From a virus, in the IMG/VR virus record IMGVR_UViG_3300036770_001423, positions 30,297 through 94,296 of that record: a stretch of DNA of 64,000 bases, one strand, 5' to 3'. The notes beneath the pieces were generated by a model, which searched no databases, had not been told where the DNA came from, and saw only the letters and a program-made list of their open reading frames with translations. Shown here piece after piece: positions 1,153 to 53,688 of the stretch (position 1 is the stretch's first letter; every line of letters begins with the position of its first letter). Both the position numbers and the translations under genes were made by a program.

Positions 1153-2058
1153 CTATGTGCTGTTCTCATTTTGCTGGGACTTGACCCACTCAGTGGCTTG
1201 CCTAAAAGCTTCTTCTTCACCAAGCCTATACACATTGAATGTTTTGCGTTTTTTATTTCCGCACATCATTTTGTACGCAACGTAGTGACCTTTTTTATTT
1301 AAATGGACATTCATTGCCTCTGTTTTTGTGTACCTTGCTGGTTTTGTTTTATCATACTTCCCAAATCGTACAAGGTAATGGTATATAAAATCTTGAAGTT
1401 CGGAGTCTTGTGTTGGGTCATACCCTTCAGAAAAGCGTCTGAATAGTGCCTTATAATTAGTTGACCTGTTCAAATTCAGTGCATTACTTATACGATAATG
1501 TTTATACCCTTTCTTATAAAGATGGTATATATCGTTGGCGAGGGACAACACATCCTTATTAGAGTAGGGAGAGTTGATTAGGCTGAAAGATTTCATCACC
1601 TCCGACCTAGCAACCCTCTCTGTTTCTGGAACATCCCTATTCTTCAGCTTTTCAACCATATGTGATGTGTCTACAGGTATTCCTCTTCTCATTGCAGATA
1701 CTACTGATTTTTGCTTGTCGGTTTGTGGCCTACCTAGCCTACCATTCAGTCCACCACCGACACAAATATTCCATCCAATTAGAGGAGCTGGTCTTAGTTT
1801 ATTCTCTAACCATCTGGCGTAATCAAGATCACATTCACACAGGACAACTAACTCAATGTCGTCCCCATATTTAACCATTGCTCTATGAACTATGCCAATA
1901 GAACTGGCTTTTTGCTTTTCGCCATTTTTCAGTTTCTTAGCAACTCGAAGATGCGTTGAGTACCTTCGCTTTACACTACCAGATGTTATACCAACATAAC
2001 CTTCTGTATTTATATCAGTATGGTCTTTGTGTTTTATCCAGTATACAAAAGAACTCAT
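1153..2058 (-). CDS. GIY-YIG homing endonuclease
   Basis: The 301-residue product begins with a GIY-YIG nuclease core: VYW near residue 5, GYVGITSG near residue 20, then a conserved arginine/histidine stretch (KRRYSTHL), with ELVVLCE and a W-E-L-R (RWLENKLRP) helix following. The C-terminal half (GRLGRPQTD, NALNLNRSTNYKALF) looks like a minor-groove and helix-turn-helix DNA-binding region typical of these enzymes. It sits exactly between portal and protease, with its ATG overlapping the portal stop (ATGA). It is free-standing and interrupts a conserved head-gene pair, as expected for an intergenic homing endonuclease. Confidence 0.85.
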   Translation of the reverse strand: MSSFVYWIKHKDHTDINTEGYVGITSGSVKRRYSTHLRVAKKLKNGEKQKASSIGIVHRAMVKYGDDIELVVLCECDLDYARWLENKLRPAPLIGWNICVGGGLNGRLGRPQTDKQKSVVSAMRRGIPVDTSHMVEKLKNRDVPETERVARSEVMKSFSLINSPYSNKDVLSLANDIYHLYKKGYKHYRISNALNLNRSTNYKALFRRFSEGYDPTQDSELQDFIYHYLVRFGKYDKTKPARYTKTEAMNVHLNKKGHYVAYKMMCGNKKRKTFNVYRLGEEEAFRQATEWVKSQQNENST

Positions 2059-3587: not shown

Positions 3588-5594
3588 TTATGAATTAAGG
3601 TCATATTGCGCTTTGATTGTGGGATCGTTGAGAGCGGTTAGTTTTGGGACTGTGTAGGTTTTGATTGTATTCAATGCGTTTAGGGCTGAGGCTGCGCAGT
3701 CGGCTACGTCATCCTTGTACCGCTTTGTGCTACGCTCCCCTGAAAACTGTTCTAGACTTTGTAGATAAAATTCCAGTGTCGCAGCATCAAATGTGCTTGC
3801 TACAATCTTGACTAGACCATTCTCACAAGCAGAAGCAAAAGGAGCAAACTTTGTCATCTTAGATTTGTTACTCGGCATAGGATCTGCTTTAACAACATAA
3901 CCTTTACCTATTAATTTCTTAGAAGACTCAATGAACTCATACTTACCTGCCGCAGAAGGATCTTTTGGAAAGATTATTGTAACATCAGTGCCGTCATGTG
4001 CTGCTTGTAGCTCTATGAGGTTATCTCGCTCACCTACAGTCTTTCTAACTACTCCGAGAACTTTACTGTCTGGATCTTTAAAACTTGGGTGAAAGTCGCC
4101 AAAGATATAGTAATAACCCTCTTTATCTTTAGCCATACCTATCTGTGCTGTGTAGTCTGGACTTGGTTCTTTGTCTGAAGGCGCAGTTCCTGCTTTATCA
4201 TAAGCCCTAACGCATTTTGCACCAAGAGGAATCTTGTCAGCAATAGCACACCACTTTCTATCGAAGTACAAGCTATTAGAAGGGCGTACTTTCCAGTTAC
4301 CATCCAACAATCTCGCTCTGTCGATAGGGTTCAAACCTTCCAACCATGCTAAATAATCAGGGTTCTGTTCTAGCATCTTAGGGTTGTCCCTAATTGTGCT
4401 ACCGATAAAACTGAAACTGATTGGTTTTACGTTATCACCATATGTAGCTTTTAATTCTTCTGGCGTATCTGCCCAGAAGTATTGACCGCCTTGTAAAATG
4501 AACCAGCGTATTACACCAGCCCTTTCTTCGATAGGGAAACCTTCGTCATCTAACCACCAAGAAATCATCTCTGCTATCTTGTGGTCGGGATCAGGGTTGC
4601 AACTGATCACCATTCGTGAAGGGTATTTGGACTCGGAACGCATCCGAGACATCAGATATTCTATTTGTGACCAATCGAATTGCGTACCTTCCGAAGTGTT
4701 CAATAAGGTTCGTTAATCCTTACCAGCAGCACTACCTGCTTCTGCATGTCGCCATGCAGACCTGACTATATCATCACCCCATTAGGGTGTCTCCCGTTTC
4801 CACTCACTTGAGTGTACGCCTTTCGGCTAGTCGATGAACGTTCTCCGTTAGGAGCTTCGCTGCTGATTGTCTCTGTGAGAGTTCCCAGCAATTAGAGAGA
4901 TTATTCGACACATATTACTACGTGAAGCGACTATTTTACAAATCGAACGCAATGAATGTATACTGTAAGCCTTGGTGATTGTACTTGTCTTTTTCTGTCT
5001 CCATGTGAGACCATTTCATTTTAAAACCAGTAGGAAACTTAGCTTCTAATGAATGCTCTGACATACGAGGACGGAGTTCTGTGGGTAGCTGCATATACAT
5101 ATTACGTGCAGTATCAAATACGCCACCAAGACCTTTGATTTGAACTGTTGTTCTGCGGAATACAATTGCGTTTGCTTTTGGGTCATCTACATAAAGCAAA
5201 GGGAGCATTTGTAATAGGAAACTTTTGCCGGAACCGGCTGCCAAATATTATGTAGTCGCTACACTACTCTGCCTTTTCAAGCAGGATCGGGTCATATCTT
5301 CATCCCAGAGGGAGTCTACCGTTTCGGATAATCAATCGCTTATTACCCTACGCCCTGACAAGGGCTGACCTCCACACACGCCATTACGCTTGGCTCGGTA
5401 TTAGCATAGAGCGTAGCCCCTTAGCTTTCACCGAATTAGATAGATTCTTAGATACACATTACTGTGTTCTGTGGCGCAAGTTCACCACCCATGATTAAAA
5501 TTTGAGCCTTACAATCAACAATCATTTGTTGTTTTTTAGATGTAGGCCCAAAAGGTAATCTTATCTCGCGGGGTTGTTTTTGTTTAGTTGTCAT
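3588..5594 (-). CDS. terL: terminase large subunit, three exons split by two group I introns
   Basis: The gene reads as join(complement) of exon 1 5484-5594 (37 codons, ATG, with AGGAG upstream), exon 2 4942-5241 (100 codons) and exon 3 3588-4691 (367 codons plus stop), giving 504 residues. Joined, exons 1 and 2 restore the Walker A motif MGG-AAGSGKS (lysine ~43). Exons 2 and 3 restore the Walker B YTFIAFD-EGTQF (Asp ~137, Glu ~138). Exon 3 carries the RNase H-like nuclease: RAYDKAGT, AAHDGTD and the KDDVADC acidic end. This is the packaging motor ATPase and headful or site-specific nuclease. Both exon ends are T and both intron ends are G, as group I splicing requires. Without splicing, reading from exon 1 stops within a few codons. 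Confidence 0.92.
4692..4941 (-). ncRNA. group I intron 2 of terL (no ORF)
   Basis: This 250-base intron lies between the Walker B aspartate and glutamate codons. On the minus strand it contains classic group I core signals: AATTGCTGGGAACTC followed by ACAATCAGCAGCGAAGC (P3/P4/P6 region), GTTCATCGACTAGCC (R element, P7 5' strand) and GATGATATAGTC (S element, P7 3' strand). The preceding exon base is T and the last intron base is G. It resembles the T4 td/nrd introns in these core elements. It carries no endonuclease gene, so it cannot move by itself. Confidence 0.93.
5242..5483 (-). ncRNA. group I intron 1 of terL (no ORF)
   Basis: This 242-base intron lies inside the Walker A coding sequence, between codons for Gly37 and Ala38. 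The minus strand holds AATTCGGTGAAAGCTAAGGG, a paired CAGCCCTTGTCAGGGC region, ACGGTAGACTCCC and GATGAAGATATGACCC, matching the group I P/Q/R/S order; the last is the S element, close to AAGATATAGTCC. The exon ends in T and the intron ends in G. The R/S sequences differ clearly from those of intron 2, so the two are not recent duplicates. Confidence 0.9.
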
Positions 5595-5649: not shown

Positions 5650-6801
5650 CTAATCTGGCGTAATATACTTTAACAATATGTCTAATACAAGACTGAAGTC
5701 TTTACGGTGGAATGTCTCTGTATAACCAGAACCCATTTCTTGTTTTGTAATTATACCTCTTTCGATACCAGAAGATATAATCTCACTCTCAAGTTTGCGT
5801 ATAACGTACCCATCAGGGTTCTCAAGATAGTATATTACAGATAAGGGGTATTTACATTTCTGTTGTATCTGCTTTAATCTTTTATCTAAATTATTCGTTA
5901 TACCAAATTTCAGCACATCGTCAGTAACTTTCAATAAATAAAAAGTACCTCCCATAGTGCTTCTATAACCAACCCTTTGATTCGAGCATCTAGGGCAACC
6001 AGCGGCATAAAGATGACTGTTAGGTGCTTGAGAAAACACACCGTGATCTCTGCATATGATGTCTATCTTAGTATGTTGATTTTTGTAATCAACTAATGAA
6101 TAGTCATATTTATCACCATGCACTTTCTTAGCTAATGATATGTATTCTTCTGTTGTGAACTTAAACATCTCTGCTTTAGCTAGTGAAGCACACTTAGTAC
6201 AACCAATTGTAGTTAAATGGTGATCAGCCCTTTGAGTGACTACGCCGTGTAACTTACATTCGTATGTAATATACTTACTCTTACCAACATACTCAGTAAT
6301 AGAGTAGTCATATTTATCCCCATGAACTTGTTTTGCTTTTTCTACATATTGTTCTTTACTAAATACTCTACTTTTAGAGTTATTGACAGTAGCACAAGAT
6401 TTGCAACCAACTTTGCCTGCTGTATGTCCTGACAGTTCTTGTCTAAATACTCCGTGGTCAGGGCAAATAATATCTACAATATCTTTAACTTTGACATTAT
6501 CGGGTATAAGACTATAATCATATTTACCGTTATGGGCGCATGTTGCTTTATCAATAAAGTACTGCCTAGGTTTTCTGGTAGCTTCTGCGATCCTTTCTTT
6601 GGCGCAGAGCTTACACCCATGTCTAGCGGATGTGTGACTGTTTGGGGTCACTTCAAATACAAAGTCGTGCTTAATACAACGAACTTTAACTTTATTACAG
6701 GCTTTAGTGTAAACAGACAAAGAATAATCATACTTATCTCCGTGAACACTTCTAGCTTTAATGATAAACGTTTCTAAATCTTCTATTTCGTGCTTTGCCA
6801 A
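5650..6801 (-). CDS. free-standing homing endonuclease with HGDKYDYS repeats and a GIY-YIG-like end
   Basis: The 383-residue product has four or five repeats of about 60-70 residues, each beginning (V)HGDKYDYS and containing paired Cys motifs (CKLCAKE, CKSCA, CTKCA, CPRCS). This is the DUF723/zinc-ribbon repeat type seen in phage endonucleases. The last ~110 residues contain GGTFYLLKV...LKFGITNNLDKRLKQIQ, a GIY-YIG/T5orf172-type nuclease core. The start is TTG at 6801, with AAGG nine bases upstream. The gene lies 55 bp upstream of terL exon 1, so it is adjacent to, but not inside, the introns. Its leader is strongly structured (see 6805-6950). Confidence 0.75.
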   Translation of the reverse strand: MAKHEIEDLETFIIKARSVHGDKYDYSLSVYTKACNKVKVRCIKHDFVFEVTPNSHTSARHGCKLCAKERIAEATRKPRQYFIDKATCAHNGKYDYSLIPDNVKVKDIVDIICPDHGVFRQELSGHTAGKVGCKSCATVNNSKSRVFSKEQYVEKAKQVHGDKYDYSITEYVGKSKYITYECKLHGVVTQRADHHLTTIGCTKCASLAKAEMFKFTTEEYISLAKKVHGDKYDYSLVDYKNQHTKIDIICRDHGVFSQAPNSHLYAAGCPRCSNQRVGYRSTMGGTFYLLKVTDDVLKFGITNNLDKRLKQIQQKCKYPLSVIYYLENPDGYVIRKLESEIISSGIERGIITKQEMGSGYTETFHRKDFSLVLDILLKYITPD

Positions 6802-14099: not shown

Positions 14100-14132
14100 G
14101 TGCAGACATTAACACATGTGAGGAGAAAATTA

Positions 14133-20520: not shown

Positions 20521-20792
20521 CATTACCTTTATTCATAGCAATCTTTGCAGTTAACTTTGTATATATCATGCTAAAAGCTATGCAGCAAAAGAGTGTGGTA
20601 GCTGATAAAAAGATGTTCATCGTTCCTACGTCTATGGCGATGAGCGCTTGCGAAACGTTCATGGTGGCAACAATAGCGACTATGGTTATTGCTACACAAT
20701 CATACTGGGCTTTTGTTCCTGCTGGTCTGGGCGGAGGTACAGGGTGCTTACTAGGAATGTCTCTGTTTAATAAACTAAACAAGGAATCATAA
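20517..20792 (+). CDS. integral membrane protein, 91 aa
   Basis: Three hydrophobic segments are visible: residues ~3-20 (LPLFIAIFAVNFVYIML), ~45-63 (ETFMVATIATMVIATQSYW) and ~66-82 (FVPAGLGGGTGCLLGMSLF). It is an inner-membrane protein of unknown function. A holin role cannot be excluded, because no other holin is recognised in the window, but the spanins are 4 kb away. It overlaps both neighbours by ATGA-type junctions. Confidence 0.65.
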   Translation: MTLPLFIAIFAVNFVYIMLKAMQQKSVVADKKMFIVPTSMAMSACETFMVATIATMVIATQSYWAFVPAGLGGGTGCLLGMSLFNKLNKES

Positions 20793-20980
20793 TGAGCTAC
20801 CATTATTCAGACATGGACGACTTACCTCCTATGAGAGTTCCTGATGCTACAGCAGAACGTAATGCACTATATGTCATCCTCTGCGACTTCTTATCTCCTG
20901 ATGAAATACAGAAGCGTATAAAAGATGTTTATGCTGGAAAATATAATCAGCGTAATACAAACGAAAAAGCCCGCATTTAG
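20792..20980 (+). CDS. hypothetical protein, 62 aa
   Basis: A small protein with no recognised family (MSYHYSDMDDLPPMRVPDAT). Its TAG stop lies inside the stem of the following terminator. It is the last gene of this operon. Confidence 0.6.
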   Translation: MSYHYSDMDDLPPMRVPDATAERNALYVILCDFLSPDEIQKRIKDVYAGKYNQRNTNEKARI

Positions 20981-20993
20981 CGGGCTTTGTTTT
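20964..20993 (+). terminator. bidirectional Rho-independent terminator
   Basis: AAAAAGCCCGC-ATTTA-GCGGGCTTTGTTTT. The A-run on the left and T-run on the right let it serve both the rightward operon and the leftward gene that follows. Confidence 0.9.
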
Positions 20994-21008
20994 ATGTGCA
21001 ATTTGTAG

Positions 21009-21554
21009 CTACATCCCAGATGTTAATCTCACCACCATATAACTCATATCATACACTTGGAAGTTACCTGAATCCGCTTTAAAATATACTTCCAATCCAT
21101 TAGCAAATATTTCTGGGCCAATAAATACTGGAACAGCAAGAGATATAAACTGTTCCACTCCGGCAGACTTACTAACACTACCAGATTGTGCCTGCACAGG
21201 GTTATACGGAAACGTAGGAGATTCTAACCGTATCTCATAAGCAGCATTCTGAGCAGAAGCTTTAGCTTTAAATCTGATCTCCACTAAAAATACGTCATTT
21301 AGTGTTTGTGGTTGAAACTTCTGAGAAGTAAAGTTATAATTGAGAGATAAACTTCTTCCTGCCTGAAAGAATATGTCAGCAGGTTGAAATTGTAATTTGG
21401 TTGTGCTACCCTGATTCACCACTAATGGGGAAACGGATGTGTAGTTATTGAGTTGAAGAAATTGCCAATCTCCTTGAGCGAACAGGTTGTCTAGGCTACG
21501 CTTTATTTTATTTTTTCCAAGAGAGACAAGCTCATGGAAGTATTCTATCACCCG
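21009..21554 (-). CDS. virion-like beta-sandwich protein, isolated on minus strand
   Basis: The start (MRVIEYFHELVSLGKNKIKRS) follows CAGGAAACCACG. The 181-residue protein is nearly all beta (YTSVSPLVVNQGSTTKLQF, LSLNYNFTSQKF, DVFLVEIRFKAKAS, LEVYFKADSGNFQVYD), with Ala/Gln/Ser-rich composition typical of head-fibre, decoration or tail-tip adhesion domains. It is the only minus-strand gene between 13.9 and 29.5 kb and sits between a terminator and a promoter as a one-gene cassette. No family name can be given. Confidence 0.65.
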   Translation of the reverse strand, partial: RVIEYFHELVSLGKNKIKRSLDNLFAQGDWQFLQLNNYTSVSPLVVNQGSTTKLQFQPADIFFQAGRSLSLNYNFTSQKFQPQTLNDVFLVEIRFKAKASAQNAAYEIRLESPTFPYNPVQAQSGSVSKSAGVEQFISLAVPVFIGPEIFANGLEVYFKADSGNFQVYDMSYMVVRLTSGM

Positions 21555-21639
21555 CATCGTGGTTTCCTGTGTTGTTGTGAGAATGCTCCTTCCTAAAGTA
21601 TACAGGAAGATTAATATTTTGTAAATAGATAAATTTATG

Positions 21640-21668
21640 TTGACAGCAAATAAATGCTCTAGTAGAAT
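21640..21668 (+). promoter_or_regulatory. sigma-70 promoter
   Basis: TTGACA (21640-21645), a 17 bp spacer and TAGAAT (21663-21668). Confidence 0.8.
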
Positions 21669-21697
21669 TACATCATCCAATCAGATAGGAGATAAGA

Positions 21698-21904
21698 ATG
21701 ACAAAAGCAAAGAAAGAGAAAGTGATTGAGACTGTTGTGTTAACATATCAGGAATACACATTCCCTGAAGTATCTTTCCCTAGTAAATTCTGTTTCAGGG
21801 ATGCTAATGGAGACTTTATCTTCATCAAGACATCGAAACGAAGTATTGCTGAGCAGTATATTAAAGATAATTATGATGGGCGTTATTCGCTGCGTGAAGT
21901 ATGA
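21698..21904 (+). CDS. hypothetical protein, 68 aa
   Basis: A Lys/Glu-rich N-terminus is followed by a small beta region (FPSKFCFRDANGDFIFIKTS). It is the first gene after the promoter at 21640, and GATAGGAGATAAGA precedes the ATG. No family is recognised. It overlaps the next start by ATGA. Confidence 0.65.
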   Translation: MTKAKKEKVIETVVLTYQEYTFPEVSFPSKFCFRDANGDFIFIKTSKRSIAEQYIKDNYDGRYSLREV

Positions 21905-22002
21905 ATAAGAAATCTGACACACCTTTAGTATTGACATTAGTATTTATGTTTGTTATATTGCCTTGGATTTTAGGATATTTAGCTATGGGAGGTACAAGAT
22001 GA
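21901..22002 (+). CDS. small membrane peptide, 33 aa
   Basis: The 33-codon frame starts in the stop of the previous gene and ends in the start of the next (ATGA both sides). One transmembrane helix (VLTLVFMFVILPWILGYLA). The tight overlap at both ends supports real translation. Confidence 0.55.
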   Translation: MNKKSDTPLVLTLVFMFVILPWILGYLAMGGTR

Positions 22003-22217
22003 GTGGAATTATTTGCAGTCCAGCAGTTTATGAATATAAAGGGATACTATTTGAGTTTCATAGTTACTGCGGCCCTTGGCCTTTAAAAAAGTCTAACCAT
22101 GACCCTAAGAAATATGCTGGGCCTAAATTCTGGGATATGTGGGATGAATTTTCAAAGCTATCGAAAGAAGAACAAATGACATACAACATTCACCGAGGAG
22201 GGTGTCAGAGAATATGA
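21999..22217 (+). CDS. hypothetical protein, 72 aa
   Basis: The start (MSGIICSPAVYEYKG) follows ATGGGAGGTACAAG. A polar protein with aromatic and proline-rich parts (FHSYCGPWPLKK). No family is recognised. It is coupled by ATGA to the phosphoesterase gene. Confidence 0.6.
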   Translation: MSGIICSPAVYEYKGILFEFHSYCGPWPLKKSNHDPKKYAGPKFWDMWDEFSKLSKEEQMTYNIHRGGCQRI

Positions 22218-22747
22218 GTAAACTGCTGATTAGTTCCGATCACCACCTCGGGCACAAGAATATCACCAAATACCGAACTGATTTTACTTCTGCGGAAGAA
22301 CATCATAATTTTGTATTTGAAAATTTAGCAACAAATGTCGGTAAACGGGACACTCTATACCTGTTAGGTGATGTAGCTTTTGACAAGTATTGGCTTGAGA
22401 AAGTAAAGAGTATTAAGTGTCAGCACAAGAAGTTAATTCTTGGTAATCACGATTCTGAACATCATTCAATTAAAGAATTAGCTGATGCGTTTGATAGTAT
22501 AGAAAGCTTACTGAGTAAACGTAATGTGTGGTTTAGTCATTGTCCAATTCACCCCCAAGAAATGCGTGGTAGGTTATTCAATGTGCATGGACACCTTCAC
22601 GGTAAGGTTGTAGAGAAAACAGTGTTCGAGTATGGCAATGCCGCAGGAATGATACAAGACGAAAGATATGTAAACGTTTGCGTGGAACATACAAATTATA
22701 AACCAATCAGTTTTGCAGAAATTATGGAGAGAATAAATGAGACTTAA
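22214..22747 (+). CDS. metallophosphoesterase, calcineurin-like
   Basis: The 177-residue enzyme carries the full metal-ligand set of the calcineurin-like superfamily: SSDHHLGHKNI (residues ~7-17), LLGDVAFD (~53-60), ILGNHDSE (~77-84), WFSHCPIHP (~108-116) and NVHGHLHGK (~125-133). The substrate is unknown; phage members act on nucleotides, RNA 2',3'-cyclic ends or signalling nucleotides. The ATG at 22214 was preferred over a GTG at 22202 that touches the ribosome site. Confidence 0.85.
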   Translation: MSKLLISSDHHLGHKNITKYRTDFTSAEEHHNFVFENLATNVGKRDTLYLLGDVAFDKYWLEKVKSIKCQHKKLILGNHDSEHHSIKELADAFDSIESLLSKRNVWFSHCPIHPQEMRGRLFNVHGHLHGKVVEKTVFEYGNAAGMIQDERYVNVCVEHTNYKPISFAEIMERINET

Positions 22748-23351
22748 GAGAAGATTGGTTTGGGGTGTTGGAATAAATGACGTTGACTACGCAGTGAACC
22801 AGCTTAAAACGACAGGTTTCGTATGTCCGTATTATCTTGTTTGGCAAAAGATGTTGGAAAGATGTTACAGTGAGAAGTATCTTAAAGTGAAACCGACCTA
22901 TGTTGGTTGTAGTATCCATCCAGAATGGCAAAGATTTTCAAATTTTATCAAGTGGGTTGATTCTCAGCCGAATAGAGATTGGCAGAATTGTCAACCAGAC
23001 AAGGATCTTCTTGTAAGAGATAATAAGTTGTATGGACCTGACACTGTGGTATTTGTTTCTAGGCAACTTAACGGTTTCTTAAATACAAACAAAGGACAAA
23101 GAGGCACCTTACTGATAGGAGTATCATATTATCCAAACACTACTTTAAAATTTAGAGCAGCTTGTAACGACCCTTTTCTTAAGAAACAGATTAAGCTTGG
23201 TTTTTACAAAACAGAGTTAGATGCCCATAAAGCTTGGCAAGCCAAGAAACACGAGTATGCTTGTCAGCTTGCAGAGCTACAAGATGACCCTCGCGTAGCA
23301 GACGCTTTGCGTCAACGTTACGCCCCTGATAAAGATTGGACAAAGGAGTAA
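22737..23351 (+). CDS. homing-type endonuclease (HNH/AP2-like)
   Basis: The 204-residue protein resembles a group of phage endonucleases: PYYLVWQKMLERCYSEKY with VGCSIHPEWQRFSNFIKWVD (residues ~32-80), then a C-terminal AP2-type DNA-binding module (GVSYYPNTTLKFRAAC ... FYKTELDAHKAWQAKKHEY). It overlaps the phosphoesterase gene by eleven bases and lies directly upstream of DNA ligase. It is probably mobile; the classical HNH residues are less clear than in the other endonucleases here. Confidence 0.7.
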   Translation: MRLKRRLVWGVGINDVDYAVNQLKTTGFVCPYYLVWQKMLERCYSEKYLKVKPTYVGCSIHPEWQRFSNFIKWVDSQPNRDWQNCQPDKDLLVRDNKLYGPDTVVFVSRQLNGFLNTNKGQRGTLLIGVSYYPNTTLKFRAACNDPFLKKQIKLGFYKTELDAHKAWQAKKHEYACQLAELQDDPRVADALRQRYAPDKDWTKE

Positions 23352-29494: not shown

Positions 29495-30094
29495 TCACGT
29501 AAGGTCTTTACATGCTTGTAAGAAATCTTCCACAGTAAAATCTTTATTAAACCACTCTAGCTTATATTTACTGTCTTTGAATTTTTCATGTAGAAGCTTT
29601 TCTAAATCTAAGTATCTACCATCCGTACATTCGAAAGTAGCTAACAATTCCACCTCAAAAGGATTACTGGTTCTTATGCTGGATAATCTGCTTTGTATGT
29701 TCTTAGAGTAACCTATCTTATAATAATCCCCGCAACCCAATAAATACACAACCCCGTTTCCTTTCCCAGAATATTTATCGTTAAAGAAATCAGACCCTCT
29801 TTGATTAGGTTTTCTAGTTTTTCTAAAAGCTCCAATGAAAGTAAACCAGACAAACGGCCATTTCAGTTCATATGAACAAGATTGTTCTTTCACATAAGAA
29901 ACGTCATCACACAGTTTAGAGACTAACTTTCTGTCTTTATTGTTCCACGAATCCTTCGGTATTTCGAGAATTTCTTTTAATTTGTCAATATGAATTGCTT
30001 TGGTGCGTTCTCTACCCCAACCAACACGGTACTTTTCTGGGATTTCTCTCAACTCACTTAGGAACCACTGTATTGTTTCATCATCAAAATTCAC
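29495..30094 (-). CDS. T5orf172/MUG113-type GIY-YIG endonuclease
   Basis: The 199-residue protein starts at GTG after GGAGGTTTAA. Residues ~114-185 (GVVYLLGCGDYYKIGYSKNIQSRL ... LATFECTDGRYLDLEKLLHEKF) match the T5orf172/MUG113 branch of GIY-YIG nucleases: VYLL, YKIGYS, R, and the D/E-L-E-K-LH-F helix. The N-terminal ~100 residues are a helical region of unknown role. It is directly downstream of the helicase-like gene, with no gap. It is probably a mobile endonuclease. Confidence 0.75.
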   Translation of the reverse strand: MNFDDETIQWFLSELREIPEKYRVGWGRERTKAIHIDKLKEILEIPKDSWNNKDRKLVSKLCDDVSYVKEQSCSYELKWPFVWFTFIGAFRKTRKPNQRGSDFFNDKYSGKGNGVVYLLGCGDYYKIGYSKNIQSRLSSIRTSNPFEVELLATFECTDGRYLDLEKLLHEKFKDSKYKLEWFNKDFTVEDFLQACKDLT

Positions 30095-31312
30095 TTAAAC
30101 CTCCAACCACTTAATTAATAGATTTCTCATTCGCTCAGACAGAATCAACACCTTCATAGGTTTACCTTGTCTGATTGCACCACGCCAAATAAACTGAATC
30201 ATCTCAGACAGAGCAAACATATCTTCATCTGGTTCAATATTATTAGCTCTTAGGTAATTCACTTCGATAGGGTTCTTAAAAATATTCACAGCATACATAC
30301 ACAAAGAATAATTACGGTAGTTGTTTGTTGCACGAATATTCATAGGAAGGAAAGCGGGCATGTCATCACTAACACCCTTCGTATATCCAGCCCCCTGCAT
30401 ACGCTTCTGGTGGTCTTTGTATGTAGTCCAGAATACCTCGCCAGCCTTAGCCTTATTGGACACAACACAAGAGCGTAGCATAGCTTTATATTTATCTATT
30501 TCTTCTTTCTTAGCTTTCTCAAACCAGCCTTTACTGAGAGTAGTATCTCTTTGCTTCTTAGCATTAGTTGCTCTGTTCTCAATGATGGTTAGATTAGCTC
30601 TAATAGACTTCTTCAGTTCTCCCTCAGACAACAAACCAAGGTTGTTGTTATCTACAACAGTGTATGGTATGTTATTCAGCTCTAACCAACATCTCATATC
30701 ACTACCATGAAACAAGTAAGTGAGAATCCACACTTCCTTTAATTCAGACAACAGGCGAGGAGGATACTCAAACATAAGGAATGTATCAGCATAGCAGTAA
30801 ACAACACCAAGACTGCACAAACTGCGAACAAAAGAATATCTACCATCGTGCTCTGGATATTCAGCTTCATTCCAACTAAGCTGATTACGTTTATCTGGAT
30901 TAATCAAAACCATACCAGATTTAAGCAAATCTCTTGTATCAGAAGGAACCAAACTTCTATCTAATAAACCAACACAACTAAGAGCTTCATCAATCACCAG
31001 TGTATATTGTTTATCTACCAACATATCAACTATCTGCACAGTAAGGTTTTGGAATAGTGCATGAGTAGAAGCAATATTCTTACCCTCGAATATCAACATC
31101 TTTAAATCACCTATCTTACCTCTACCTTTGTTCTCTGGTGTATAGAAATCTAATTCTGGTAATTCCTTTGGTACACGTTCATCAATCTCAGAGAGGAACG
31201 GAGTGATGTATAAGAACCTAGCTTCTGGGTTCTCTTTAGCTTTCTGTCTAATCAACTCAAACATCTTAGTGGACTTACCTGTACCACACATACTATCAAT
31301 AACATTAATCAA
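30095..31312 (-). CDS. helicase-like P-loop NTPase
   Basis: The TTG start was chosen because AAGGAG lies a few bases upstream; the longer ATG frame begins before that site. The 405-residue product opens with LINVIDSMCGTGKSTKMFEL (Walker A, lysine ~13), has TLVIDEALSC (Walker B with DE, ~106-116) and ends with MIQFIWRGAIRQGKPMKVLILSERM (~375-398), like the arginine-finger motif VI of SF1/SF2 helicases. The middle is divergent. It is probably a DNA or RNA helicase or translocase. It is the only large gene next to the candidate origin, and is transcribed away from it. Confidence 0.7.
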   Translation of the reverse strand: MINVIDSMCGTGKSTKMFELIRQKAKENPEARFLYITPFLSEIDERVPKELPELDFYTPENKGRGKIGDLKMLIFEGKNIASTHALFQNLTVQIVDMLVDKQYTLVIDEALSCVGLLDRSLVPSDTRDLLKSGMVLINPDKRNQLSWNEAEYPEHDGRYSFVRSLCSLGVVYCYADTFLMFEYPPRLLSELKEVWILTYLFHGSDMRCWLELNNIPYTVVDNNNLGLLSEGELKKSIRANLTIIENRATNAKKQRDTTLSKGWFEKAKKEEIDKYKAMLRSCVVSNKAKAGEVFWTTYKDHQKRMQGAGYTKGVSDDMPAFLPMNIRATNNYRNYSLCMYAVNIFKNPIEVNYLRANNIEPDEDMFALSEMIQFIWRGAIRQGKPMKVLILSERMRNLLIKWLEV

Positions 31313-50967: not shown

Positions 50968-52596
50968 ATGAATTGGTTTGTTTTTGATCTCGAAACTTAC
51001 CCGAATATATTCACTTGCTGTGTTGCTGATATGCAAACACGTAAGATGAAACTGTTTGAGATTTCTTCACGCAAAGACCAGCGTAATGACATGTTTGAAT
51101 ATTTGCGTGGTGTTCGCAGACAGAATGGAATTCTCGTGGGTTACAATTCACTTTCTTTTGATGAACCAGTGTTGCAGAATCTGTTGAAGAATAAGACCAT
51201 GACAGTTGGTGAGATTTACCACTACGCCATGAAAGTTATTCAGTCAGGTTACGGTGATAACAAATGGCAGTATCAAATCAGAGAGAAAGACCGTTTCTTA
51301 CAACAGCTTGATTTGTTTAAAATGAACCATTTCGACAACAAGGCAAAGGCTACATCTTTGAAGATGATTGAGTTTAATTCACGCTCAAACAACATTGAAG
51401 ACTTGCCTTTCCCTGTTGGGAAGCACTTAACTAACGCTGAAATGGATGTGCTGTGTAAATACAACTGCCATGACGTAAAGGAAACGGTGAAGTTCTTTGA
51501 GAACTGTAAAGCTCAGATTGACTTCCGTTTAGACTTACAGAAGAAGTATGGGTTCAATGCTCTGAACTGGAACGATACTAAGATCGGTAGTGAGTTCTTC
51601 ATTATGGAGTTGGAGAAAGCCGGTATCAATTGCTATGATGGTCAAGGTAAGGCTCGTAAGACAAAACGTACATATATTGATTTAGTTGATTGTATTTTTC
51701 CATATATCAAGTTTGAGCGCCCAGAGTTCAATGCTATTCTTGAATGGTTGAAGCGTCAGCGTATTACAGAAACCAAAGGAGTGTTTTCAGATATTCCTGA
51801 ACACGAGCTTGGTGATGTTGCTAAGTATGCTCTGATGACAACCAAGCGTATCAAGTTCAAGAACAAACCAACTCAGAAAGAAATTGATGAGATGTTAAAA
51901 CAATATCCGCTAGGTTGGGTGGAAGAAATTGAACTGAAAGCTAAGTTACCAAAGAAAGATGGTGGTGGATTCAAGAAGGCTTATTGGTTCAACTATCGGA
52001 TTGCTGATGCTCTGAATGTGGTGATTGATGGGTTGTGCTACGTATTTGGTACAGGTGGTGCTCACGCTGCGGTAGAAAAACGAGTAATTGTTTCTGACGA
52101 AAAAAGAGTAATTCGTACTTTTGACGTTTCTAGTTTTTACCCTAATTTAAGTATTAAGAACAAGGTTTATCCAGAGCATTTGGGTATCGAATTCTGTGAT
52201 ATTTACGAAACGTTATACAACATGCGTAAATCTTTCGATAAGAAGTCTGCTGAAAACGCTATGCTCAAACTGGCTCTGAATGCAACATACGGGAATTCTA
52301 ACAATGAGTATAGTCCGTTTTACGATCCGAAGTTTACTATGACTATCACACTGAATGGTCAAATGTTACTGTGTAAAGCTATCGAGATGGTGCTTTCTTT
52401 ACCGACTGTAGAAATCCTAATGGCTAATACTGACGGTTTCGAGTTTATCATTGACAGAGAATACGAAGCTTTAGCTGAAGCTAAATGTAAAGAGTGGGAA
52501 GAAATGACTGGTCTAACGTTAGAGGGTGATACTTACGCTAAGATGGTTATTTCTGATGTAAACAACTACTTTAGCATTTATGAGGAAAAGAAATGA
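50968..52596 (+). CDS. family B DNA polymerase, N-terminal piece (exonuclease and palm)
   Basis: The 542-residue protein carries the 3'-5' exonuclease (FVFDLETYPN, Asp7/Glu9; VGYNSLSFDEPVL). It also has polymerase motif A RTFDVSSFYPNLSI (~383-397), motif B LKLALNATYGNSNNEYS (~430-446) and motif C LMANTDGFEF (~484-493). It stops at YFSIYEEKK, just before the thumb region. The rest is encoded from 53095, after an inserted HNH gene. It was probably one 740-residue polymerase split by mobile-gene insertion. The piece has all catalytic residues but lacks the DNA-gripping end. Confidence 0.92.
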   Translation: MNWFVFDLETYPNIFTCCVADMQTRKMKLFEISSRKDQRNDMFEYLRGVRRQNGILVGYNSLSFDEPVLQNLLKNKTMTVGEIYHYAMKVIQSGYGDNKWQYQIREKDRFLQQLDLFKMNHFDNKAKATSLKMIEFNSRSNNIEDLPFPVGKHLTNAEMDVLCKYNCHDVKETVKFFENCKAQIDFRLDLQKKYGFNALNWNDTKIGSEFFIMELEKAGINCYDGQGKARKTKRTYIDLVDCIFPYIKFERPEFNAILEWLKRQRITETKGVFSDIPEHELGDVAKYALMTTKRIKFKNKPTQKEIDEMLKQYPLGWVEEIELKAKLPKKDGGGFKKAYWFNYRIADALNVVIDGLCYVFGTGGAHAAVEKRVIVSDEKRVIRTFDVSSFYPNLSIKNKVYPEHLGIEFCDIYETLYNMRKSFDKKSAENAMLKLALNATYGNSNNEYSPFYDPKFTMTITLNGQMLLCKAIEMVLSLPTVEILMANTDGFEFIIDREYEALAEAKCKEWEEMTGLTLEGDTYAKMVISDVNNYFSIYEEKK

Positions 52597-53111
52597 TTGA
52601 CGCAGCACTCGTTAGGTCATTGTTTCATTATGACCCCGACACTGGAGTATTTAAGAGAATAGGTAGGTTGAAATGTAACGGAGAAATTACTTCTTGTGAT
52701 TTCGTAGGTACGGCTCGTTCTACTCACGGTTATTTACAGTATACTGTAAAGGATAAGACTTATGATGTACACCGGTTGATTTTCTTATACACGGACGGTG
52801 AGTTTCCTGAATGTGATATAGATCATATTGACGGTAATAGATTGAACAATAAATGGTCTAATCTCAGGAAAGTCACTAGGTCTGAAAATCTCAGAAATGT
52901 AGGAAAGAAACAAGAAAATAAATACGGGTTTACTGGTATAGGTGTACATACTCAATCTGGGAAGTACCGTGTGTTTATAGGTTCTCATCATAAGTCAGGT
53001 TTTAACACACTGGAAGAAGCTGTTGAGTATCGTCAACGATTGGAAAAGGAAATGGGTTACACTGACGATCATTTTAAACGTGAGGTATGGAATAATGAAA
53101 TTCAAAGCTAA
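52593..53111 (+). CDS. HNH-AP2 homing endonuclease inserted in the DNA polymerase gene
   Basis: The 172-residue protein has an HNH nuclease (YDVHRLIFLYTDGEFPECDI, DHIDGNRLNNKWSNLRKVT, ~residues 52-93) and an AP2-type end (YGFTGIGVHTQSGKYRVFIG). The ATG overlaps the stop of polymerase piece 1 (ATGA), and its end overlaps the start of piece 2 by 17 bases. There is no room for intron core sequence, so it is an in-gene insertion rather than an intron ORF. Confidence 0.9.
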   Translation: MIDAALVRSLFHYDPDTGVFKRIGRLKCNGEITSCDFVGTARSTHGYLQYTVKDKTYDVHRLIFLYTDGEFPECDIDHIDGNRLNNKWSNLRKVTRSENLRNVGKKQENKYGFTGIGVHTQSGKYRVFIGSHHKSGFNTLEEAVEYRQRLEKEMGYTDDHFKREVWNNEIQS

Positions 53112-53688
53112 AGGTCGTTATGAATGGAGAGATTTACCTAATCACAAGAATCATTCAGCTCTGATAGTTAAAATGGCTGTAGAGGAATTTATTCTACACG
53201 GAACAGATCCTGAAGACTTTATGAGAAACCATAAGAATTGTTTTGATTTCTGTTTAAGGGCTAAGATACCGCGCAGTAGCAAGCTTGTGATTGTAGATGA
53301 AAACGGAGTTGACCATCAGACACAGAACATTTGCCGTTATTATGTATCTAAGAACGGTGGTGATTTGGTGAAGGTGATGCCACCTTTAGCTGAGTTCAAG
53401 GAAGAACAGGTGTGGGTGAATCATCTGACAATGGAAGAAGTTACAATTTCTTCTGCTGTGGATATTGCAAAGTATGAAAAGAAAGGGTATACTTTCAGTC
53501 ATACAGTGAATACTCCTTGCGAAGACCGTAGGTTCTTCATTGAGGCTGGTTGGAAATGTAAGGTTGTGAATGACATCAACGATTTTGTATGGGATGTCGA
53601 TTATGACTATTACGTTGAACGTGCTTGGAAACTCATCAATTTTGCTGATGAAAATTCTTCACAAGAAGATGTTGACACAACAGAATAA
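53095..53688 (+). CDS. family B DNA polymerase, C-terminal piece (thumb)
   Basis: The 197-residue product starts at ATG after GAGGTATGGAATA with KFKAKGRYEWRDLPNHKNHS. This is the segment that in intact phage family B polymerases follows motif C and contains the K-x-K-G-(R/Y) primer-contacting motif, followed by SALIVKMAVEEFILHG. The remaining residues are thumb-like. With its own ribosome site it can be made separately and associate with piece 1. Confidence 0.85.
   Translation: MKFKAKGRYEWRDLPNHKNHSALIVKMAVEEFILHGTDPEDFMRNHKNCFDFCLRAKIPRSSKLVIVDENGVDHQTQNICRYYVSKNGGDLVKVMPPLAEFKEEQVWVNHLTMEEVTISSAVDIAKYEKKGYTFSHTVNTPCEDRRFFIEAGWKCKVVNDINDFVWDVDYDYYVERAWKLINFADENSSQEDVDTTE

Follow-up and report, generated by a model that had tools for sequence, protein, structure and literature searches.

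Organization of the terL locus

The window, i.e., the whole stretch of DNA analyzed here, comprises 64,000 nucleotides (positions 30,297 to 94,296) of the virus record IMGVR_UViG_3300036770_001423. The gene encoding the terminase large subunit (terL) is located on the minus strand of the window (5594-3588), and its reading frame is broken twice, which leaves three exons of 111, 300, and 1,104 nt separated by two inserts (Table 1). A ribosome-binding-site-like GAGGAG, read directly from the sequence, lies upstream of exon 1, and this exon is also present in the close relatives L005 and L007. Joining the exons restores both ATP-binding motifs, Walker A (GG-AAGSGKS) and Walker B (FD-EGTQ; in these and similar strings, a hyphen marks the point of insertion), and yields a single 504-residue open reading frame (ORF) that contains no stops or frameshifts and unites Walker A, Walker B, and the nuclease domain of an rv5/Vequintavirinae-type terminase large subunit. 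In unspliced terL, a stop is reached at most 12 codons into the first insert and at most 2 codons into the second. No reading frame is open across either insert; stops occur in all frames, so neither insert encodes an internal endonuclease.

The Pfam domain Terminase_6N spans exons 2 and 3, and Terminase_6C is also located in exon 3. Alignment with an intact Vequintavirinae TerL extended over residues 15 to 490 at 57% identity in one piece across both junctions. Matches to intact TerL proteins were found in 1,379 phage records, 1,222 of which covered at least 80% of the query. A PDB search with the spliced TerL returned no sequence relative at an E value of 0.01, and a scan of bacterial genomes found no close TerL relatives. 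When the 94,296-base record was searched for a second, intact terL, the split copy alone was found. An earlier sequence-only reading of this DNA had placed both breaks, and the motifs restored across them, in a terminase encoded by a single split gene; its boundaries proved exact to the base, and the alignment and the record search agree with it.

TABLE 1 Positions of the terL exons, the predicted introns and their pairing elements, and two free-standing genes in the window
Feature	Position	Strand	Remarks
terL exon 1	5484..5594	-	37 codons; ATG at 5594; ends in ..MGG at Walker A
terL exon 2	4942..5241	-	100 codons; from Walker A GSGKS to Walker B ..IAFD
terL exon 3	3588..4691	-	367 codons plus stop; remaining ATPase and nuclease domain
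Intron 1 (predicted, ORF-less group I), 242 nt	5242..5483	-	Site GGT-GCA (GG-AAGSGKS), Walker A
Intron 1 internal guide GCCAC	5471..5475	-	P1 with 5' exon GUGGU, 5 bp, U.G at splice site
Intron 1 P7 5' strand GGUCA	5366..5370	-	
Intron 1 P7 3' strand UGACC	5290..5294	-	
Intron 2 (predicted, ORF-less group I), 250 nt	4692..4941	-	Site GAT-GAA (FD-EGTQ), Walker B
Intron 2 P7 5' strand GACUA	4828..4832	-	
Intron 2 P7 3' strand UAGUC	4764..4768	-	
Free-standing homing endonuclease gene, 383 aa	5650..6801	-	Stop 55 nt before terL
Second free-standing gene, GIY-YIG-like start YVGITSGSVKRRY	1153..2058	-	Downstream of portal gene; motif read directly

Group I identity of the inserts

Both inserts display the splice-site hallmarks of group I introns: the 5' exon ends in T, the insert ends in G, and a U.G pair is formed with the internal guide (P1). 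The core helices P3, P4, and P7 were compared over 27 introns from the window and its relatives using a motif-anchored search. In 16 of these, including two L007 near-duplicates of the window's own introns, P3 (six pairs), P4 (five or six pairs), and P7 (five pairs) were found in the right order and with consistent spacing. Two weaker matches (L108_268 and nrdA) were left out of this count, and a further nine introns gave no match to the motifs used. Many double changes were observed in both P4 (e.g., UUCGGU/ACCGAG, UUGCUG/CAGCAG, and CUCAGG/CCUGAG) and P7 (e.g., GGUCA/UGACC, GACUA/UAGUC, and GGCCA/UGGUC). As the search selects the best pairing, it is the shuffle control that carries evidential weight: none of 2,000 dinucleotide shuffles of either insert reached a score of 21 in the combined P3, P4, and P7 search, compared to an observed score of 22.

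The Walker B insert (intron 2) matched the Rfam group I model RF00028 with 83.1 bits (E value, 1e-19), above the cut-off of 50, and its thermodynamic fold was supportive (z score, -3.2). Its P1 is short, with 4 bp at the conserved guide GUCG, which is also found in L041; a 7-bp alternative lies further in. The Walker A insert (intron 1) scored 38.5 bits (E value, 1.8e-7 in a 4-kb search), which is under the cut-off, and homologues of this type likewise reached only 37 to 43 bits. As its minimum-energy fold was no better than that of shuffled sequences (z score, -0.9), thermodynamic folding was uninformative for this insert and was dropped as the main line of evidence in favor of covariation. 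Rfam was also rejected as the only arbiter of group I identity, as the experimentally proven terL intron of Vibrio phage ICP1 has no RF00028 match even at an E value of 0.01. In intron 1, the UUGC directly before the guide is able to pair with the GCAG of the 3' exon (P10). In L041 and L020, the corresponding place is occupied by AAGC, which is able to pair with GCUG and thus represents a compensating change.

The sequence-only reading had based its group I assignment on the terminal T and G residues and on R and S core elements, and both observations hold for both inserts, with the core elements forming the P7 pairing. The covariance model and the fold bear out this assignment for intron 2. 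For intron 1, the model match is below the cut-off despite its low E value and the fold adds nothing, and the assignment draws mainly on the covarying P3, P4, and P7 helices, which shuffled sequences never match. Overall, both inserts are almost certainly self-splicing, ORF-less group I introns, and from these sequence features we infer that splicing takes place in this phage.

Endonuclease genes at the locus and elsewhere in the genome

The product of the gene directly upstream of terL combines zinc-ribbon-like VHGDKYDYS repeats with a C-terminal T5orf172/MUG113 (GIY-YIG-like) nuclease domain (PF13455 MUG113). It matches phrog_681 (3e-72) and phrog_559 (3e-39), the latter being the endonuclease family encoded inside terL introns of the Bastillevirinae (PMC11878797). 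The position of this gene beside terL is conserved in L005, L006, and L007. The ORF-less introns adjoin a free-standing homing endonuclease gene, as in a collaborative homing unit. The sequence-only reading had described both introns as being without an endonuclease, which is true of the introns themselves; for the locus as a whole it overlooked the gene 55 nt away.

Among lineages that carry a Walker A intron, 8 of 12 have an endonuclease gene immediately upstream of terL, versus approximately 13 of 43 among those that do not carry it (Fisher's exact test, P = 0.04), an association that is suggestive only, as the lineages were assembled by hand and unevenly sampled and one of those counted as lacking the intron (L102) was assigned by its similarity to L099. 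A simple rule by which intron and upstream endonuclease are present or absent together was rejected; the link is weak, and nearly one-third of the loci that lack a Walker A intron have such a gene as well.

The second free-standing gene in Table 1 gave no Pfam or PHROG match. Its site is empty in L005 and L007, where approximately 70 bp are found instead, and the gene is thus probably a recent insertion. At least six more HNH or T5orf172-type endonuclease genes lie between positions 14100 and 64000 of the window (at 29495, 37222, 40281, 42607, 57889, and 60276), making this an endonuclease-rich phage. In addition, an HNH endonuclease gene (52593-53111) divides a DNA polymerase gene (50968-53688) in two. 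The N-terminal part covers phrog_1252 to position 509 and the C-terminal part covers it from position 511, and the rejoined C-terminal region is 65% identical to an intact Barba phage polymerase. No group I intron was detected at this split, so it may represent a gene split by a homing endonuclease gene (HEG). Outside the window, the gene encoding the ribonucleotide reductase large subunit (nrdA; G000 1-2356, L018) carries an ORF-less RF00028-like intron at QSNLC, and the tape measure gene (G000 20600-23188, L019) carries an HNH-encoding group I intron.

terL introns and inteins in related phages

All three close relatives (L005, L006, and L007) carry intron 1. The intron 2 site is also occupied in L007, which therefore has both sites of the window; in L005 and L006, a related intron lies 20 nt upstream in place of intron 2. 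The ORF-less pair at both window sites recurs in a distant relative represented by L041 and L043, whose terL genes are identical to each other and whose TerL shares 51 to 63% identity with that of the window, depending on the segment. In such distant relatives, insertion positions are accurate to about one or two codons. A homologue of intron 1 was found in 112 Rheinheimera Barba phages. In Barba1A it occupies the identical site after GG, where the record is annotated as a short hypothetical protein followed by a truncated TerL. Acinetobacter phage YMC13/03/R2096 has two terL introns above the RF00028 cut-off, and the terL gene of L084 (3551-5464) contains four group I introns without ORFs, located near residues 36, 129, 168, and 268. 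A further weak RF00028 match lies downstream of terL in L084 (7879-8117). The sequence-only reading had called the two-intron arrangement unusual. This can be upheld only in part, given the proven ORF-less Walker A intron of ICP1, the same pair in L041 and L043, and the four introns of L084.

Other types of mobile element occupy the same motifs. In L038, the Walker B insertion site used by intron 2 holds an HNH-encoding intron, an HEG-bearing intron is present at a neighboring site in L051, and inteins interrupt Walker A in L073, L104, and Escherichia phage Av-05. The 11 distinct TerL intron and intein sites fall in unusually conserved parts of the protein. None of 100,000 random draws gave a conservation as high, and the clustering remained at a P value of approximately 1e-5 once neighboring sites were grouped. 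In L048, L049, and L050, the Walker A site after GG coincides exactly with a shift of the terL frame (GGT TGA GTG...) with no intron, and an HNH gene is located directly upstream in L049; the shift may reflect a frameshift signal, a scar left by repair, or an error.

Sequence similarity along the locus is uneven. The stretch that runs from the nuclease domain of the upstream endonuclease gene to the end of exon 2 is approximately 95 to 99% identical to L005 and L007, and most of exon 3 is 80 to 88% identical. As the portal gene is also partly approximately 95% identical to that of relatives, the genome is mosaic, and the high-identity terL block is no proof of mobility. Across distant lineages, intron 1 is 75 to 77% identical while its flanking exons are 56 to 66% identical, a difference that would fit either horizontal movement or a strong constraint on the ribozyme. 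Introns related to those in terL also interrupt the L005 portal gene and the nrdA gene of the phage studied here.

Proposed mechanism and alternative explanations

We propose that self-splicing introns and collaborative homing together account for this locus, a reading to which we assign a probability of about 0.88 as a whole. According to this model, terL would be transcribed as a precursor containing two ORF-less group I introns, each of which would fold into a guanosine-dependent ribozyme and excise itself, so that the codons of Walker A and Walker B are rejoined. The product of splicing would be a functional 504-amino-acid packaging ATPase/nuclease. The introns would persist and spread because the most conserved terL codons serve as homing targets: the endonuclease encoded at 5650-6801 would most likely cut, near Walker A, the terL of competing phages in which this gene has no introns, and the subsequent repair would copy the endonuclease gene together with intron 1, exon 2, and, in some cases, intron 2. 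For this mobility step taken by itself, which is read from gene arrangement and sequence similarity, we see an even chance. It is rather unlikely that one terL-aimed endonuclease moves the entire block (endonuclease gene, Walker A intron, exon 2, and Walker B intron) between distant phages; if it did, terL would constitute a stacked homing target accommodating up to four ORF-less introns, as in L084.

A less probable but serious possibility is that the introns are immobile, vertically inherited remnants that have lost an internal HEG, with the upstream endonuclease being an unrelated later arrival. Such HEG turnover was proposed as an alternative for ICP1 (PMC10448857), and it agrees with the HEG-bearing introns found at the Walker B site itself (L038) and next to it (L051), as well as with the upstream endonucleases that flank terL genes lacking a Walker A intron. 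However, intron 1 is more alike between lineages than its exons are, and both the related intron located 20 nt from the window's site in L005 and L006 and the related introns in portal and nrdA genes point to movement. The introns could also be regulatory, delaying TerL production until late infection, sensing GTP, or allowing exon 2 to be skipped for an alternative product. As all exons consist of whole codons, skipping the 300-nt exon 2 would indeed preserve the frame. The sequence gives no regulation-specific sign, though, and the patchy presence of the introns in relatives argues against a required regulatory role, which makes this explanation improbable. Finally, terL might be a broken pseudogene or an assembly artifact, or a functional terL might be located elsewhere. 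The possibly incomplete state of the record would speak for this explanation. Against it, the record holds only one terL, whose spliced frame is free of stops and frameshifts, three independent contigs (L005, L006, and L007) show the same structure, and introns occupy the same sites in unrelated samples and in cultured phages. A pseudogene or duplicate terL was rejected on the basis of the record search, and we consider this last explanation extremely improbable.

Comparison with known systems

A close known counterpart of the arrangement proposed here is found in Vibrio phage ICP1, in which splicing of terL was demonstrated by RNA-seq, RT-PCR, and Sanger sequencing and collaborative homing was proposed (PMC10448857). 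As in the present phage, an ORF-less Walker A intron resides in an rv5-type TerL, and a T5orf172-type endonuclease gene immediately precedes exon 1, adjoining the N-terminal terL exon; the vicinity of terminase genes is the commonest location of T5orf172 genes (PMC10448857). Mapped from the ICP1 record, its intron site (YGGA-..GGGKS) is one codon beyond that of intron 1. Both genomes also have an HNH-bearing intron in the tape measure gene. In contrast to the phage studied here, ICP1 has a single terL intron, of a type invisible to RF00028, and no Walker B intron, and its splicing is proven. The Rheinheimera Barba phages (e.g., MK719701) share an ORF-less homologue of intron 1, located at exactly the same position after GG (77% nucleotide identity). 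Unlike here, they have no Walker B intron, and directly upstream there is just a hypothetical 61-amino-acid reading frame. The paper describing the Barba phages does not mention introns.

Group I introns are also present in terL of the Bastillevirinae (SIOphi, phiAGATE, and Moonbeam), some of whose genes carry two or three, and splicing has been proven both in vitro and in vivo (PMC11878797). These Bacillus phages resemble the present case in having terL group I introns and differ from it in that most of the introns (32 of 45) encode an internal endonuclease. The Vequintavirinae TerL of Escherichia phage Av-05 is likewise interrupted by group I introns, which lie at Walker B (DEG-) and near residue 238, but an intein takes the place of an intron in Walker A. 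Its deposited record (L021, L024; NC_025830) appears scrambled or inverted within terL. Inteins in mycobacteriophage TerL proteins occupy Walker A, Walker B, and the C-motif (PMC5050341); these too are mobile elements in TerL motifs, although they are removed by protein splicing and not RNA splicing. A literature search on the combination of group I intron, terminase, Walker A, and homing endonuclease found nothing.

In T7-like phages and cyanophage S-PM2, the targets of collaborative homing are DNA polymerase or psbA genes. There, as here, an ORF-less intron is combined with a free-standing endonuclease, which in those phages is aimed at the insertion site, and cleavage was experimentally demonstrated (reviewed in PMC3984707 and PMC2988022). 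Cultured phages such as ICP1 or Barba1A make it possible to test collaborative homing that targets an essential motor gene.

The arrangement of terL introns described here is thus already known in kind and recurs across many related phages. The catalytic codons of phage terL emerge as places where small self-splicing introns and inteins insert repeatedly, often with free-standing endonucleases beside them. These elements are widely misannotated, giving a truncated or split TerL in the records of Barba1A, YMC13/03/R2096, and Av-05. The present analysis adds to the known systems ORF-less introns that recur on the catalytic codons of TerL, a Walker A and Walker B pair conserved in two distant lineages, and a terL gene with four introns.
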